Shown here piece by piece: positions 8,373 to 35,545 of a DNA stretch of 36,071 bases; the first letter of the stretch is position 1, and every line of letters starts with the position of its first letter. Source of the DNA: Egibacteraceae bacterium (lineage in GTDB: Bacteria; Actinomycetota; Nitriliruptoria; Euzebyales; Egibacteraceae); assembly GCA_035540635.1 (NCBI GenBank), contig DATLGH010000061.1, forward strand, positions 1 to 36,071, read 5' to 3'. Made by a program: the position numbers and the translations under genes. The notes beneath the pieces are model-generated. The model was not told where the DNA came from, did not search any database, and was given only the letters and a program-made list of their open reading frames with translations.

Positions 8373-8624
8373 TTACTCGGCGAGCACCTCGGCGAACTTG
8401 CGTTTGCCCGAGCTGCGGAACGACACCCTGCCGTCGATCAGCGCGAACAGCGTGTCGTCGCCGCCGCGGCCCACGTTCTCGCCGGGGTGGATGCGGGTGC
8501 CGCGCTGGCGGACGATGATCGTGCCGGCGGTGACCACCTGGCCCCCGTAGCGCTTCACCCCGAGCATCTTCGGGTTCGAGTCACGCCCGTTGCTGGTGGA
8601 GCCGCCGCCCTTCTTGTGTGCCAT
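8373..8624 (-). CDS. rpmA: 50S ribosomal protein bL27
   Basis: bL27 reaches towards the peptidyl-transferase centre of the 50S subunit. The 83 residues start [16 protein letters not shown] and contain [15 protein letters not shown], the family hallmarks, with no cleaved Firmicutes-type N-terminal extension. GAGGAG precedes the ATG at about eight bases. It lies 16 bases after rplU in the same transcription unit. No terminator is evident in the 72 bases after it. Confidence 0.97.
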
Positions 8625-8640
8625 CGTGTCGTCTCCTCGA

Positions 8641-8952
8641 CTACGCGGTGATGTCGTCGACCCGGATCCGGGTCAAGGACTGGCGGTGGCCGGCCTTGCG
8701 GCGGTAACGGGTCTTGTTGCGGTACTTGAAGACGGTGATCTTGTTCCCGCGACGCTGCTCGACGACGCTGGCCCGCACGGTCGCGCCATCGAGGGCGTCG
8801 GGGGTCGCCTTGACGCCGCCGTCGTCGTCGACGAGCAGCACGGGCCGCAGGTCGACGCTGCCGTCCTCGCCGGGCTCGACCTTCTCCACGTCGAGGGTGT
8901 CCCCGACGCGGACGCGGTACTGCTTGCCGCCCGTGGCGATCACGGCGTACAT
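8641..8952 (-). CDS. rplU: 50S ribosomal protein bL21
   Basis: bL21 is a 50S subunit protein that contacts 23S rRNA. The 103 residues start [14 protein letters not shown] and end with the basic RNA-binding part ([20 protein letters not shown]), the full family length. AGGAG lies five bases before the ATG at 8952. It is first in the rplU-rpmA unit and is served by the promoter at 9051-9079, giving a leader of roughly 90 bases that begins with a strong hairpin. Confidence 0.97.
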
Positions 8953-9024
8953 CGTGGCTCCTGCCGAGTGCGGGCTCGGGGCGCCGCGGACCGGGGGTCG
9001 GGGCGCGTCGACGAGCGAAATAAA

Positions 9025-9042
9025 GGTGCGCCTCGGCGCACC
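9025..9042 (-). ncRNA. Hairpin at the 5' end of the rplU leader
   Basis: GGTGCGCC and GGCGCACC form a perfect eight-base inverted repeat (seven pairs around a CGAG loop), followed on the minus strand by TTTATTT (9024-9018). From the promoter position the transcript would begin near 9044, so the hairpin would occupy about bases 3-20 of the RNA. It looks like an intrinsic terminator but is very close to the start site; a 5'-stabilising or ribosomal-protein-responsive structure is an alternative. Confidence 0.55.
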
Positions 9043-9050
9043 GCCTGGGA

Positions 9051-9079
9051 AGTGTAGGGTGCCCCCAATGCCCTGTCAA
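9051..9079 (-). promoter_or_regulatory. rplU-rpmA promoter
   Basis: On the minus strand TTGACA (9079-9074, a perfect -35) is separated by exactly 17 bases from TACACT (9056-9051). This is the best promoter in the window. Its -35 lies inside the first codons of the divergent Clp N-domain gene and its -10 overlaps the putative -10 of that gene. Confidence 0.8.
9055..9060 (+). promoter_or_regulatory. Putative -10 box of the Clp N-domain gene
   Basis: TAGGGT on the plus strand lies seven bases before the ATG at 9068, a leaderless arrangement without a Shine-Dalgarno. It shares two base pairs with the -10 of the rplU promoter on the other strand. Confidence 0.4.
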
Positions 9080-9892
9080 TCAGCGCCCGGGCGGGTGCGC
9101 CTCACCGACCAGGCCCTCGTCGCGGTGGCCGCCGCACGGCAGGCCGGCGCTCACCACGGCAGGCATCCCACCGCCGCCGACATGCTCGTCGGCCTCGCCG
9201 CGGAGCCCGACGGCTGTGCCGGCGCCCTGCTGCGGACCCTGCCGAGTGCGGCGCTCGGCCTCGTCGAGCGGACGCGGACCACGCCGGCGCGGCTTCCCGG
9301 CCTCGAGGCGGTCGTGGGCCGCGCGGCCCGCCGGCAGGGCGCGCGGGCGGTGTCGACGGCCGACCTGCTCGCCGCGCTCCTCGAGGCGGGGGGCCCGGAC
9401 GTGACCGACCTGCTCGACGCCTGCGGGTATGACGCCCGGGCGCTGTACCGGGCCGTCACCGGCGACCCGGCGGCCGCGCACGAGACGTTCGGCCTCGGCT
9501 CGGACCCGGACCTGTCCGTCGATGCGGCGTTCGCCGTCGCCCGCGTGCGCGCCACGGGCGGAGGAGCCGTCGACCTGCTCCTCGCCATCGCCTCGACGGG
9601 GGGTTCGCAGTCCGTGCTGCCAGGAGGCGAAGAGGAACTTGCCGGGAGGCTCGCCGGCCTCTGGGAGGACGGCGAGCCCGCGCGCACGGGGCCGGACTGG
9701 GACCTCGGCCTCGAGGCGGTCCTCGCCGCGGCTCGGGCTATGGTCGCGCCGCCGATCGACGCGCTCGACCTCGTCCGCGCCGCGCTCCTCGCCGGCGGCC
9801 AGGGGCCCGGCCGGCTGCTCGAGAACGCCCAGCCCCCCCAGCCCCGCGCCTCGCGGAGCCCCCAGCCGCCCAGCGAACGGGGGACCGCGTGA
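9068..9892 (+). CDS. Stand-alone Clp N-terminal (double Clp-N) domain protein
   Basis: The 274-residue protein matches the N-terminal substrate-handling domain of ClpA/ClpC-type unfoldases but has no AAA+ module. RLTDQALVAVAAARQAGAHH, HPTAADMLVGLAAEPDG and STADLLAALLE are Clp-N repeats; LDACGYDARALYRAV closes the first module (about residues 10-125). A second, weaker module spans about 140-255 (LSVDAAFAVARVRA, AVDLLLAIAS, IDALDLVRAALLAGG). The last 20 residues are Pro/Arg/Ser-rich. It may bind substrates or arginine-phosphate-like marks, or act as an adaptor or decoy for a Clp machine; this is inference. The start is ATG 9068, with GTG 9095 an alternative that matches the first conserved residue. 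The stop overlaps the next gene in GTGA. Confidence 0.82.
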   Translation: MPCQSAPGRVRLTDQALVAVAAARQAGAHHGRHPTAADMLVGLAAEPDGCAGALLRTLPSAALGLVERTRTTPARLPGLEAVVGRAARRQGARAVSTADLLAALLEAGGPDVTDLLDACGYDARALYRAVTGDPAAAHETFGLGSDPDLSVDAAFAVARVRATGGGAVDLLLAIASTGGSQSVLPGGEEELAGRLAGLWEDGEPARTGPDWDLGLEAVLAAARAMVAPPIDALDLVRAALLAGGQGPGRLLENAQPPQPRASRSPQPPSERGTA

Positions 9893-31311: not shown

Positions 31312-31563
31312 TCACGGGGCGCCAATGGTCCGGTCCGCGAGGCGCCGCTCGACGCGCGGGGGCGTCGCGCGCCGTCGCCACCGACGCAGGGCGGCTCGAG
31401 CGAGCGCGGACAGCGCCCAGGCCGCGAGCACACCGACCGCAACAGCCACGGCGAGGCTCGCCATGAGCTGGGCGAACAGGACGAGCACGATGGCGGCGAC
31501 GTCACCGGCGGTGAGGTCCGGCCACAGGAAGTCGAGGCCGGCGAGGACGGGTGGGATGAGCAT
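31312..31563 (-). CDS. Small membrane protein, unknown (83 residues)
   Basis: This gene is called from its AAAGGA ribosome-binding site six bases before ATG 31563, the two hydrophobic stretches (about residues 2-14 and 19-48) and the strongly basic tail (RAALRRWRRR, then PRVERRLADR). That is a small membrane protein with a positively charged cytoplasmic end. I do not recognise a family. ATG 31578 would add five residues. It is last in the lipid cassette, 38 bases after the 102-residue gene and 52 bases before tig. Confidence 0.6.
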   Translation of the reverse strand: MLIPPVLAGLDFLWPDLTAGDVAAIVLVLFAQLMASLAVAVAVGVLAAWALSALARAALRRWRRRATPPRVERRLADRTIGAP

Positions 31564-31601
31564 GGCCGGTCCTTTCATCGCGGGGTGAATACGCGGGGTG
31601 G

Positions 31602-31910
31602 TCAGCGCGCCGTGGCGCGGCGCCACGCGACGAGGGCGGCGCACGCCGCCCAGACGGGGGCGTAGGCGAGGGCGTTCAGCTCCCAGCCGTACACCCCGGC
31701 GCGGGAGGCGAGGAGGGCGAGCGACCCGGCAGCCGCCGCACCCAGGCACCAGCCGGCGCACCAGCCGGCCACCCGGCGCCGGGCGAGGTGCGCGCCGGCC
31801 ACCGCGCCGGCCAGGCCGGCGGGCGCCGACCAGACGATAGCGGCGCCGGTGAGCACGAGGAGCAAGAGGCTGGTGAAGCCGGGGCCGTCGAAACCGGCGA
31901 TGAGGACCAT
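31602..31910 (-). CDS. Small membrane protein, unknown (102 residues)
   Basis: The frame from ATG 31910 has AAAGG eight bases upstream and encodes three or four hydrophobic helices (TSLLLLVLTGAAIVW, LAGAVAGAH, WCLGAAAAGSLALLA, AYAPVWAACAALVAW) with short Arg-rich links. Cys and Trp residues cluster in AGWCAGWCLG. No family is recognised. It starts 17 bases after the PlsC-YqaA stop, so it is probably co-transcribed with the lipid genes and could be an accessory to them. Confidence 0.6.
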   Translation of the reverse strand: MVLIAGFDGPGFTSLLLLVLTGAAIVWSAPAGLAGAVAGAHLARRRVAGWCAGWCLGAAAAGSLALLASRAGVYGWELNALAYAPVWAACAALVAWRRATAR

Positions 31911-31927
31911 GGCGAGGGCCTTTCGTC

Positions 31928-33316
31928 TCAGGAGCGGGCAACGACCTCGACGAGGCCGAGGGTGAACAGCACGAGCAGGCAGGCCACGGCGGCGGCGTAC
32001 ACCCCGGGGACGCGCCGGGGCGGGCACAAGCGGCGCAGCACGGCGCCGAGGCCGGCCATGACCGCCGCGACGGCGAGCATGCGGGCCCCGCGCGCCAGGG
32101 CCGTGACCGCGAGGAACGGGCCGAGTGCGGCGCCCTCGCCGGCGGCCTGGAACGCGAACGCCTTGTAGGGCACCGCGGACAGCGGCTGGGTCCAGACCCC
32201 TCCCGCCCCGGCGTCGGCGAGCAGGGTGCGTGCGGTGTCGGCCATGCCGGCGGTCACAAGCGGCAGCGCGGGCACGTGGCCCGCGGCGCCGAGGCCCCAG
32301 GCGGCGGCGCCTCCGGTCACCGATCCGGCGGCCCCGGCGAGCGCGAGCGGCAGGAACCGGGTCGGGGCGGCGGCGGCGAGCAGGCCGATGCCGAGGTCGG
32401 GTATGACGGGGAAGACGAGCGCCTCGGCGAACGACCAGGCGAAGACCACCGCGATGCCGCGGGGGGTTGCGGCGAGGGCGCGGGCCCGGGCGTACACGGT
32501 GGGCCGGGGCGCCCGGCGGCCGGCTGGGCCGCCGTCGGCGGCCGCCCCCGCGTCACGCGTGTTCCCGGCCGCGGTCGCTGCTGCGGCGTCGGCGGCGAGG
32601 TGGCGGACCCGGTCCTGGAGGTCCGCGGCGACGGCGGCGGGGTCCGCGCCGGGCGGGTAGCGGCGGGCCTGGCCGAACACCACCGCGACGGGTCCCCGGC
32701 GAGGACGCCGGGCGCCCTTCGGCAGCAGCGCCGCGGTGCCGGCCAGGCCCACCGGCACGACGGTCGCCCCGGCCACCGCGAGCCGGCCGATCCCCGCGCG
32801 GAACGGGCCCCCGTCTCGCGTGCCCTCGGGGAACAGCAGCACGACGCGGCCTGCGGCGAGCTGCGCGGCGGCGCGCTCCAGCCCCGCGGGCCCGCGGCGG
32901 GGGAACGGGAAGGCGCCGAGCAGCGCCGCGGAGAGCGTCCCGCGCAACCTGCCGGCGAAGAAGTAGTCCTCGGCGGCTGCGGGCGCGAGGCGGCCGCGCA
33001 GCCGGCGCGGGAGGGCGCGCAGGATCACCGCGGTGTCGGCGTGGCTCGTGTGGTTGGCGACGAGCACGACCGCGCCGTCGGGCAGCCTGTGGGCGCCATT
33101 CACGGGCAGCCGGCCGGCGGCGGCGCGCAGGAGCGGGAAGATCGCAAGCCTTCGCACGAGCACGCGCAGCGCAAGCAGGGGCCAGGTGCGGACCGCGCCC
33201 CGGTGGAGCGGGCCGGAGCGACCCACCCGCGAAGGCGTGGACGGTGGGGTGTGGCGGGCGGCGCCCGCGACGGGCTCGCAATGGGGCCGGGCGGCACCGA
33301 GCGGCGTCACGCCCAT
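31928..33316 (-). CDS. PlsC-type acyltransferase fused to a YqaA/DedA-like membrane domain
   Basis: The 462-residue protein has two parts. Residues about 60-230 are a 1-acylglycerol-3-phosphate acyltransferase-like domain with the NHTSHAD catalytic motif (HX4D) and FPEGTR. Residues about 300-445 resemble YqaA/VTT proteins of the DedA superfamily: the acidic-Pro motif SFAEALVFPVIPD and LSAVPYKAFAFQAAG, among four or five helices. DedA/VTT proteins include lipid scramblases, so one chain might make and move a lipid; that is inference. Between the parts is a Pro/Ala/Arg linker. ATG 33316 has a GGTGG stretch upstream; GTG 33310 overlaps the cdsA stop (GTGA) and is an equal candidate. Confidence 0.85.
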   Translation of the reverse strand: MGVTPLGAARPHCEPVAGAARHTPPSTPSRVGRSGPLHRGAVRTWPLLALRVLVRRLAIFPLLRAAAGRLPVNGAHRLPDGAVVLVANHTSHADTAVILRALPRRLRGRLAPAAAEDYFFAGRLRGTLSAALLGAFPFPRRGPAGLERAAAQLAAGRVVLLFPEGTRDGGPFRAGIGRLAVAGATVVPVGLAGTAALLPKGARRPRRGPVAVVFGQARRYPPGADPAAVAADLQDRVRHLAADAAAATAAGNTRDAGAAADGGPAGRRAPRPTVYARARALAATPRGIAVVFAWSFAEALVFPVIPDLGIGLLAAAAPTRFLPLALAGAAGSVTGGAAAWGLGAAGHVPALPLVTAGMADTARTLLADAGAGGVWTQPLSAVPYKAFAFQAAGEGAALGPFLAVTALARGARMLAVAAVMAGLGAVLRRLCPPRRVPGVYAAAVACLLVLFTLGLVEVVARS

Positions 33317-34221
33317 GCGAGCACCCACCCCGTGGCCAGCGGCGCGGCGACGAGCAAGGAGTCCGCCCGGTCGAGCAGGCCGCCGAAGCCGGGCAGCCAC
33401 CCCCCGGCGTCCTTCACGCCGGCGTGGCGCTTGACGAGCGACTCGAGCAGGTCACCCCACACACAGCCGGCGGCGACGACCACGGGCAGGCCGATGGCCA
33501 CCGGGGCGGGCAGGCCGGCCAGCGCGAAGCCCATGAGCGCGACACCAGCTGCCGCGCCGGCGAGGTTGCCCGCGACGCCGGCGCGCGTCTTCGCGGGGCT
33601 GATCCGAGCGGCGAGGGCGGCGCCGCCGAGGCCACGGCCGGCGACGAACGCGCCGACGTCGCTCGCGGCCACCGCGACGACGAGGGCGAGGAGAATGCCT
33701 GCCCCACCCGGGACGTGCAGGCGCAGCACGAGCAGGCATCCGGCCAGCCACGGCACCCACGCGAACCCGAGGGCGGCGGCCGCGAGGTCGCGCAGCCCCC
33801 CGGGGTCCTGGCGGACGAGCGGGACGGCCGAGGCGGCGAGCAGAAGCGCGGGCAGCAGCACGAGCCAGGCGAGGGGCGAGCAGGCAGCAGCCGCACAGGC
33901 GACCACCGCGGCGGCGCACAGCCCGTGGCGCCACCCCCGCGGCAGTCGCACCAGGCCCGCGTACTCCCGGCCGGCCTGCAGGGCCAGGGCGGTGACCGCC
34001 GCCAGCGCCCCCCAGGAGCTCGCCACGGCGAGCGCGAGGAGCGGCGCAACGGCGGCCCAGCTCGCCCAGCGCCGCAGCAGCGTCCGACCCGGCAGGTCGC
34101 CCACGCCGCGGCGCTCGGCGACGAGGACGGCGGCGAGGCCGGCGAACAGGACCGCGCCGATCCGCGTGGCGCCGGGACCGAGGAGCGGCGCCGACGTCTG
34201 CCCGAGCACTGCGGCGCTCAC
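33307..34221 (-). CDS. cdsA: Phosphatidate cytidylyltransferase (CDP-diacylglycerol synthase)
   Basis: CdsA converts phosphatidate and CTP to CDP-diacylglycerol, the precursor of all phospholipids, in the membrane. The 304 residues have about eight helices and the C-terminal family signature SLVKRHAGVKDAGG followed by LPGFGGLLDRAD. In that signature the usual His (PGHGG) is Phe279, and the residue before the last Asp is Ala. AASDVGAFVAGR and ISPAKTRAG also fit the family. GTG 34221 overlaps the stop of the phosphatidyltransferase (GTGA). The Phe might mean a divergent substrate; a second cdsA elsewhere in the genome would support that. Confidence 0.88.
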   Translation of the reverse strand: MSAAVLGQTSAPLLGPGATRIGAVLFAGLAAVLVAERRGVGDLPGRTLLRRWASWAAVAPLLALAVASSWGALAAVTALALQAGREYAGLVRLPRGWRHGLCAAAVVACAAAACSPLAWLVLLPALLLAASAVPLVRQDPGGLRDLAAAALGFAWVPWLAGCLLVLRLHVPGGAGILLALVVAVAASDVGAFVAGRGLGGAALAARISPAKTRAGVAGNLAGAAAGVALMGFALAGLPAPVAIGLPVVVAAGCVWGDLLESLVKRHAGVKDAGGWLPGFGGLLDRADSLLVAAPLATGWVLAWA

Positions 34222-34910
34222 GGCGCGCTCACCGCCCGGGGCGTCCGGGGCGTCCGGGCCGTCGCGCGGCGCAGCCGGACCAACCGCGCGACGGCCGTGA
34301 CCACCCCGCCGGCGAGCACGGCGGCGGCGGCGACGGTGATCGGCGTCGCCGCGCCGGTAGCGCCCGCGGCGGCGGCGCCCAGACCGACCACGGCGACGCG
34401 TTCGGCCTTGCCGAACGGACCGCCGCAGTCCCGTCGCCCCGTGACGGCGAGGGCGAGCACCCCGACGAGGCTGGCCGCGAGCGCCGCGGCCAGCGCGCCG
34501 GCGGCCAGGGCCGTGGACGTCACGGCCGCCACACCGGCGAGCAGGCCGACGTCCCCGAGGCGGTCCCCCACCTCGTTCGCCACCACGCCGGACGGCCCCG
34601 CTGCGCCGCTCCTGCGCGCCAGCCGGCCGTCGAGGGCGTTGGCCGCCAGGCGGGCGACGCCGAGCGGTCCGACCGCCATCCACAGCGCCGGCGTGTCGAG
34701 CAGCGCGCCGAGCGCGAGGCACGTCCCGGCGGCCCAGCCGAACGCGGCCCCGGCGGCGGTGACGGTGCCCGGGCGCACCCCCCGGACGGCGAGTGCGTCC
34801 TCGAGCGGAGCAAGCCGGCGGGTGAACCACGGCTTGGCCGCGTACAGGCCGCAGGGCGGGCGGACGTCGCTGGTCCGCGGGGTCCCGATGCCACGCTGCT
34901 CGACGGCCAC
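34218..34910 (-). CDS. CDP-alcohol phosphatidyltransferase family protein
   Basis: The family joins CDP-diacylglycerol (or another CDP-alcohol) to an alcohol. The 230 residues have about six helices and the signature NALDGRLAR (91-99), Gly108, Asn112 and Asp116. Compared with DxxDGxxAR-x8-GxxxDxxxD, the first and third Asp are Asn91 and Asn112. I recall relatives with the same NxxDG...N pattern, so this may be a subfamily rather than decay, but cannot check it. AGGGGAG five bases before GTG 34910 is an excellent ribosome-binding site. It is first of the lipid cassette. The product lipid cannot be told. Confidence 0.85.
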   Translation of the reverse strand: MAVEQRGIGTPRTSDVRPPCGLYAAKPWFTRRLAPLEDALAVRGVRPGTVTAAGAAFGWAAGTCLALGALLDTPALWMAVGPLGVARLAANALDGRLARRSGAAGPSGVVANEVGDRLGDVGLLAGVAAVTSTALAAGALAAALAASLVGVLALAVTGRRDCGGPFGKAERVAVVGLGAAAAGATGAATPITVAAAAVLAGGVVTAVARLVRLRRATARTPRTPRAVSAP

Positions 34911-34930: not shown

Positions 34931-35545
34931 TTGTGTCCGATCGTGCGGCGCCGTCGCGGCGGAGCCATCAGGGACATCCCCGATCTCCTCCCGGGGACGG
35001 CCGGGGCCAGTCTTGGGGGGCGGCCCGGAGCGTTTGGCGGAGCGGCCTCGCCGCGGGCCGTCGCCGCCGGGGTCGCGCGCACCGTCGACGCCATTGCGCG
35101 GGCGGTTGCGCCGGGCGTGGGAGCGGCGGGCACGCCTCGTCGGCGGTGGTGCCGTCCTGGGCTCGCGCTGATGTACCAGCCGGCGCTGCGGCTGGCGGCG
35201 TCGACGGTCGACCTCGACGAAGACGCTGCCGGGGCCGCCGGCTTCCCGCCCCTCGACGAGCGCTCGAGCGTCCTCGCCGCGGACGGCTCCGTCCTCGCGA
35301 TGCTCCACGGCGAGGTCGACCGCCGCGTGGTCCCGCTCGACCAGATCCCCGGGCACGTGCGGCACGCGGTCATCACCGCCGAGGAGCGGCGCTTCAACCG
35401 AGCCCGGCGGCCACGACCCCGAGGCGATCGCCCAGGCGTTCGGGGCGAACTGCGGGGGCGCAGGCGCGGCGCGGTCATCCGGGCCAGCCCCGAGGAGGGC
35501 TACCTCGACGAGGGGGCGGCGCACGCCGCCATGCTGGCCCCGCCC
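34931..35545 (+). pseudogene. Decayed class A penicillin-binding protein (GT51 glycosyltransferase) fragment
   Basis: Frame 2 reads PPLDERSSVLAADGSVLAML, VPLDQIPGHVRHAVITAEERRF, which is the start of a class A penicillin-binding protein glycosyltransferase, with the catalytic Glu in the E-[DE]-RRF motif. The natural continuation, EPGGHDPEAIAQAFGANCGG, appears one base out of frame just after the Asn codon at 35396-35398 (one extra base in AACC). A later piece, SPEEGYLDEGAAHAAMLAPP, is back in the first frame. The remaining glycosyltransferase and all of the transpeptidase domain are absent. A usual N-terminal membrane helix is not clear. The left limit is uncertain; ATG 35171 is the last plausible start. 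A sequencing error alone would not explain the missing downstream part. Confidence 0.7.

Follow-up and report, generated by a model that had tools for sequence, protein, structure and literature searches.

Two readings present themselves for the compact set of membrane-lipid genes at this locus. It may belong to the ordinary phospholipid synthesis of the cell, or it may be a pathway of its own, in which a lipid is made and then moved across the membrane by a dedicated protein. The window, i.e. the whole stretch of DNA analysed, is 36,071 nt long and comes from an Egibacteraceae bacterium (GCA_035540635.1, contig DATLGH010000061.1, positions 1-36,071).

Gene content and coding evidence

The cassette lies on the minus strand and runs from 34910 to 31312, in the order YnbA-like gene, CdsA gene, PlsC–VTT fusion gene, small ORF 1 and small ORF 2. 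The features and the evidence for them are as follows.

34218..34910, minus strand: YnbA-type CDP-alcohol phosphotransferase, 230 aa (identity to E. coli YnbA, NCBIfam, family profile, N/N signature)
33307..34221, minus strand: second CdsA / CDP-diacylglycerol synthase, 304 aa, YnbB-like in context (PF01148, alignment to E. coli YnbB, tree)
31928..33316, minus strand: PlsC–VTT fusion protein, 462 aa (PF01553, AlphaFold2 model, also fused in two further genomes)
32531..33190, minus strand: PlsC acyltransferase half of the fusion, about residues 43-262 (HX4D and FPEGTR motifs, structure match 5kym)
31931..32515, minus strand: predicted divergent VTT/DedA half of the fusion, about residues 268-462, YqaA (COG1238)-like (model, BFVD, profile-profile comparison)
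31602..31910, minus strand: small hydrophobic ORF 1, 102 aa (RBS-like AAAGG, coding GC pattern)
31312..31563, minus strand: small ORF 2, 83 aa, with one hydrophobic segment (RBS-like AAAGGA)

The five ORFs which the initial annotation had placed in one direction at 31312-34910 are all found there. Third-position GC is 0.87-0.95 across all five and the GC content by codon position is coding-like. The GTGA overlaps described between the genes hold for one part of the cassette. Such an overlap is present at the ynbA-like/cdsA junction, and at the cdsA/fusion junction if GTG 33310 is the start of the fusion (with ATG 33316 as the start, the overlap is 10 nt). At the two small-ORF junctions there is no overlap: 17 nt separate the fusion stop from the start of small ORF 1 (31910), and 38 nt lie between small ORF 1 and the start of small ORF 2 (31563). 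That the gene set and its architecture are as described here is hardly open to doubt.

The small ORFs are tied to the system by position and strand alone. Pfam gave no family for small ORF 1 and none above the cut-off for small ORF 2. Of the earlier statement that two tiny membrane proteins belong to the set, the presence of hydrophobic ORFs stands, while no relatives of either one were found in other actinobacterial cassettes.

Phosphotransferase of the YnbA type

The window phosphotransferase shares 30% identity with E. coli YnbA across 162 aa. Archaetidylinositol-phosphate synthase is its closest NCBIfam model (6.5e-11) and the PIP synthase model was also matched; PF01066 was not reached, either in the Pfam search of the genome or in that of the protein alone. 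A profile of seven YnbA-type relatives, compared with solved structures, matched PIP-synthase (7e-14). The protein carries the N/N signature and neighbours a YnbB/CdsA gene, and on sequence grounds it belongs to the bacterial family of which E. coli YnbA is the type.

The signature of the enzyme class consists of eight ‘absolutely conserved’ residues, of which D1-D3 bind metal and D4 acts as the base (PMC4634129). Six of the eight residues of the class I signature, D1xxD2G1xxAR...G2xxxD3xxxD4, are present in the window protein, which reads N-x2-D-G-x2-A-R-x8-G-x3-N-x3-D, with Asn for D1 and D3. The same combination (D1=N, D2=D, D3=N, D4=D) occurs in 83/83 aligned YnbA relatives, a count that is unbiased for D3 and D4 only, as the search pattern had preset the residues of D1 (N) and D2 (D). 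Two proteins found by profile without this pattern, those of G149 and G402, are N/N too, and the controls with a readable motif are D/D in 16/16. The 83-member alignment included the genome's own PIP-synthase-type protein as a comparison. According to PMC4634129, R153 and R191 of PIP synthase are proposed to bind the acceptor phosphate. Two acceptor-site residues, identified by alignment to PIP synthase, are Arg throughout the YnbA relatives (83/83, again without bias from the pattern): the one that corresponds to R191 and one of the two in the RxxR motif. The RxxR register differs by aligner, with HMMER placing Lys on the first Arg and Arg on the second, and MAFFT placing Arg on the first.

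The divergent phosphotransferase motif noticed in the initial annotation is thus real, and as a fixed signature of 83/83 relatives it is not noise. Since it is common to the YnbA family, it is not peculiar to the window. With Asn in place of two metal-binding Asp residues, the chemistry may differ from that of a standard CDP-alcohol phosphotransferase. A literature search of partial coverage found no lipid product of any YnbA member. In another genome of the phylum, G083, the YnbA-like frame (L098 2548-3063) diverges from its relatives after ~138 aligned residues, probably due to a frameshift in the gene or in the assembly.

CdsA of the cassette

The cassette CdsA scores 135 bits against CTP_transf_1 (PF01148; cut-off 24) and shares 29% identity with E. 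coli YnbB across 279 aa. Its alignments to E. coli CdsA and to the genome's own CdsA cover mainly the C-terminal half. The divergence ascribed to its motifs turns out to be mild: Phe replaces the His of GHGG, and the rest of the C-terminal signature, SxxKRxxGVKDxGxxLPGxGGxxDRxDS, is kept. In the tree, it groups with CdsAs of other cassettes, from Actinomycetota and Chloroflexota, and falls outside the YnbB clade; the long housekeeping CdsA branches make this placement relative to YnbB and housekeeping CdsA a tentative one. E. coli YnbB makes CDP-DAG in vitro and cannot support bulk phospholipid synthesis in place of CdsA, and its overproduction leads to more MPIase (PMC6362211, PMC7018664).

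The PlsC–VTT fusion

Pfam Acyltransferase (PF01553) matches residues 72-190 of the fusion with 57 bits (cut-off 23). Both PlsC catalytic motifs, HX4D (NHTSHAD) and FPEGTR, are intact, and the model of this half superimposes on T. maritima PlsC (5kym) with a Z of 18.0 over 203 residues (rmsd 3.8), so that family profile, motifs and fold all identify a PlsC. The AlphaFold2 model of the whole fusion (pLDDT 83) has two domains.

The second domain, modelled alone (pLDDT 89.6, pTM 0.84), shows the DedA pattern of two inverted units, each with an amphipathic helix, a re-entrant loop and a TM helix. In BFVD, SNARE-associated Golgi (VTT) proteins make up the top three matches (prob 1.00, 0.90 and 0.96; E 0.06-0.28). 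Pfam on this half alone returned nothing relevant and did not reach the PF09335 cut-off, and its relatives score 8.7e-8 to 1e-2 against VTT_dom, all below the cut-off. A PDB fold search gave no VTT structure among its matches (Z ≤ 5.6). In profile-profile comparison, for which the reference sets were small, the best match is YqaA/COG1238 with an E of 1.5e-7 over 134 columns, compared to 1.4e-3 for COG0398, 0.075 for COG0586 and 0.22 for an unrelated membrane-family control. Single-sequence hhalign gave weak matches to E. coli YqaA and to the genome's other VTT protein. Model and profiles together support a predicted VTT/DedA fold that would be closest to YqaA. The earlier claim of a PlsC fused to a DedA/YqaA-like domain is thus supported by Pfam, structure prediction and the YqaA profile, the C-terminal half of 31928-33316 folding in prediction as VTT/DedA (pLDDT ~90).

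Across ten sequences from several phyla, E31, P39, P116-Y117-K118, R142 and R145 of the VTT half are invariant and D40 is near-invariant. These conserved residues sit in or beside the two re-entrant segments, E31 and D40 in the first and P116-Y117-K118 in the second. PMC10127716 describes DedA proteins as lipid flippases or scramblases, and reports of COG1238 that 99% of its proteins have a single domain, that they are rare among Actinobacteria and that little is known of their function.

The same two domains form one ORF in G097/L102 and G083/L098, with 46 and 49% identity over the protein; one of these two genomes is public record JAIVGO010000114.1. An identical domain fusion in two other genomes rules out a chance event or an assembly artefact. 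The literature search, partial in its coverage, found neither a PlsC–DedA fusion nor a CDP-alcohol transferase paired with a VTT protein.

The VTT domain occurs outside the cassette too. A relative is encoded on a Pseudorhodobacter turbinis plasmid (L197 3932-4474), and nothing that matches YnbA, CdsA or PlsC lies within 4 kb of it.

Spread and variants of the operon

Within the family, G009 is the only genome besides the window's own with a strong YnbA match, and seven of the 396 genomes searched in the phylum, the window's included, have a match below 1e-20. The PlsC–VTT fusion is found in the window, G083 and G097, all Actinomycetota. PlsC and VTT are separate genes in G107 and in an Acidimicrobiia MAG (L105), and in G090 and G009 the VTT gene follows straight after CdsA, with PlsC absent.

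Among 80 loci from many phyla, YnbA and CdsA are neighbours in most and PlsC is present in most. Operons of YnbA, CdsA, PlsC and VTT were identified in Actinomycetota, Pseudomonadota, Verrucomicrobiota and Bacillota; in most of them, PlsC and VTT are encoded by two genes that overlap. A VTT gene lies directly after PlsC in alphaproteobacterial, Micavibrio-labelled, proteobacterial, Verrucomicrobiaceae and Acidimicrobiia MAGs (names as given in the record titles) and in Shimazuella, and in these the two ORFs overlap by 4-10 nt. Outside the phylum, L112, L118, L137, L142 and L154 have the order of the window with separate overlapping genes, and L163 has all four genes in a different order. The recurrence of the gene set in several phyla strengthens the label of ‘cassette’ which the initial annotation had given it.

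In Enterobacteriaceae and Burkholderia, which make up most of the related operons sampled, YnbC/YnbD stand in place of VTT. Therefore, VTT is not an obligatory part. About 42 of the 80 loci have YnbC and/or YnbD, 9 have VTT and 0 have both, in a sample dominated by Enterobacteriaceae and Burkholderia and with many short contigs. This may hint at YnbC/YnbD and VTT being alternative accessories. In Citrobacter, Serratia and relatives (L106, L107, L109 and others; ~8530-9140), a PlsC gene is located between ynbB and ynbC; E. coli K-12 lacks it, and its ynbB–ynbC gap is 15 nt. Burkholderia-type loci (L122, L135, L150 and others) are arranged as two divergent groups on opposite strands, ynbA-ynbC-ynbD and plsC-ynbB.

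Genomic context

The genome (110 contigs, 96% complete) was searched for further cdsA and phosphatidyltransferase genes, as the initial annotation had proposed. On contig C109 it has another CdsA, and five further CDP-alcohol phosphotransferases pass the Pfam cut-off, among them a PIP-synthase-type protein with the canonical signature (C21) and PgsA-type enzymes (C67 and C59). The window phosphotransferase is too divergent to be listed by this genome-wide search. The cassette is a second, non-housekeeping set.

In a genome of the same genus (G001), clpP and tig are followed by a divergent penicillin-binding-protein gene and then by tRNA-Pro. About 0.9 kb separates the tig start from the first aligned part of the penicillin-binding-protein gene, with no cassette between, and that gene is long and largely intact (L202 4216-5934). 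In the window, the cassette is flanked by tig on one side and, on the other, by a 45-aa penicillin-binding-protein remnant (35252-35386, plus strand), after which comes tRNA-Pro. Gain of the cassette with decay of its neighbour and loss of the cassette in G001 both fit this arrangement; the patchy spread of the YnbA gene favours gain. In G083, a penicillin-binding-protein gene (L098 5424-7553, plus strand) directly follows the cassette, related to the one whose remnant adjoins the window cassette.

Proposed pathway and alternatives

The reading that we prefer, and hold with even confidence, is that the cassette encodes an accessory phospholipid pathway of its own, with a dedicated scramblase or flippase coupled to it. 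Its reactions, acceptor and flipping step are what we infer from the gene set. At the inner face of the membrane, the PlsC half would convert lysophosphatidic acid to phosphatidic acid, from which the second CdsA would make CDP-diacylglycerol. The YnbA-type enzyme would then transfer the phosphatidyl group from CDP-diacylglycerol to a polar acceptor, most likely a phosphorylated polar alcohol, as in PIP and archaetidylinositol-phosphate synthases. Finally, the VTT half, tethered to PlsC, would act as a scramblase or flippase and carry either the product or an intermediate across the membrane. The likely translational coupling of ynbA, cdsA and plsC-vtt, read from the gene junctions, argues for such a pathway, as do the other CdsA and CDP-alcohol phosphotransferases of the genome, the recurrence of the gene set across phyla, the invariant D2, D4 and acceptor-site Arg, the intact PlsC motifs and the published work on YnbB and DedA proteins. 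The related sets in unrelated bacteria suggest that the two parts of the fusion work together on one lipid. Points against the pathway are the two Asn in the metal site, the literature searched, which gave neither a lipid product for YnbA nor transport by YqaA-type proteins, the small ORFs, for which it has no role, the tentative placement of the CdsA, and the many related operons with YnbC/YnbD instead of VTT. Because VTT follows CdsA even without PlsC (G090, G009), it appears tied to the YnbA–CdsA product and not to PlsC alone, which points to the YnbA product as its cargo.

Another explanation is that the cassette duplicates an ordinary pathway, redundantly or for certain conditions, supplying more PIP or PGP, with the VTT half as a generic scramblase. 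We consider this unlikely, although it is the best of the alternatives. It would agree with PIP synthases being the closest solved relatives of the YnbA profile, with archaetidylinositol-phosphate synthase being the closest NCBIfam model, and with the kept acceptor-site Arg. However, the canonical PIP-synthase-type protein and the PgsA-type enzymes are already present in the genome, the altered signature is fixed across phyla against entirely canonical controls, and E. coli YnbB is no substitute for CdsA in bulk phospholipid synthesis (PMC6362211).

Two further explanations are both improbable, to the same degree. In the first, the cassette would make a glycolipid primer of the MPIase kind: from CDP-DAG and a sugar-1-phosphate, the CdsA/YnbB partner, with YnbA as the transferase, would form a sugar-pyrophosphate-diacylglycerol, and VTT would handle the glycolipid. 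MPIase is indeed raised by YnbB overproduction in E. coli, and its proposed first intermediate is GlcNAc-PP-DAG, formed from CDP-DAG and GlcNAc-phosphate (PMC6362211, PMC7018664). A phosphate nucleophile might also fit the less acidic metal site (Asn for Asp) and the conserved phosphate-binding Arg. Against this, deletion of ynbB in E. coli leaves MPIase unchanged and CdsA alone is reported to be sufficient for the step, in a paper that does not mention YnbA (PMC6362211), and the window cassette contains no glycosyltransferase.

In the second, the VTT half would be a mere membrane anchor or scaffold which holds PlsC beside CdsA and YnbA, with no transport. Its divergence, its lack of a Pfam match on its own and the membrane helices that the fusion adds to PlsC in the model are consistent with this, as is the fact that the literature searched contains no demonstrated transport for YqaA-type proteins. 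However, the (near-)invariance of E31, D40 and P116-Y117-K118 over ten sequences is more than an anchor needs, and VTT is kept where PlsC is absent.

A bolder proposal, to which we give slightly less credence still, is that the YnbA family has a distinct chemistry. Asn at D1 and D3 would let a phosphomonoester (e.g. a sugar-1-phosphate) instead of an alcohol attack CDP-diacylglycerol, giving diacylglycerol-pyrophosphate-linked lipids, with the fused PlsC–VTT as the dedicated acyl supplier and flippase of a one-operon make-and-flip machine present in several phyla.

Finally, that these are housekeeping phospholipid genes in their ordinary place, as their position beside tig-clpP-clpX might imply, is almost certainly wrong, being refuted by the second CdsA on C109 and the other CDP-alcohol phosphotransferases, PgsA included, and opposed by the absence of the YnbA-type gene from nearly all same-genus and same-family genomes searched and by the proximity of tig and the penicillin-binding-protein gene, without a cassette, in the same-genus genome.

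Significance and comparison with known systems

The ynbAB operon type is already known by annotation, and E. coli ynbA is annotated by its domain alone. The literature covered gave no earlier description of the PlsC–VTT fusion or of an operon version with VTT. The present analysis shows that, in several phyla, ynbAB keeps company with genes for an acyltransferase and a DedA/VTT protein, and that a single polypeptide can hold both the acyltransferase and the transporter-like domain. The YnbA product becomes a concrete substrate hypothesis for a COG1238-like VTT protein, and both this product and the function of such VTT proteins are made testable in E. coli.

Compared to the E. coli ynbABCD operon (b1408-b1411), the first two genes of the cassette are homologous to YnbA and YnbB, and the N/N signature and gene order are common to both. 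The operons differ in what follows, with YnbC (hydrolase/methyltransferase) and YnbD (phosphatase) in E. coli where the window has PlsC–VTT. The nearest characterised class by sequence is that of PIP synthase and archaetidylinositol-phosphate synthase, with which the window enzyme has the two acceptor-site Arg in common, whereas it has Asn at the metal-site positions D1 and D3. With PlsC (1-acylglycerol-3-phosphate acyltransferase), the fusion shares motifs and fold, and it adds a C-terminal VTT domain. Within the DedA/VTT superfamily, the helix and re-entrant pattern of this domain is that of the YqaA (COG1238) branch. Unlike COG1238 proteins, reported as almost always single-domain, the window domain is fused to PlsC, and whereas the second re-entrant segment of COG1238 is said to be without positive residues (PMC10127716), the window domain carries an invariant PYK with K118, followed by R142 and R145.
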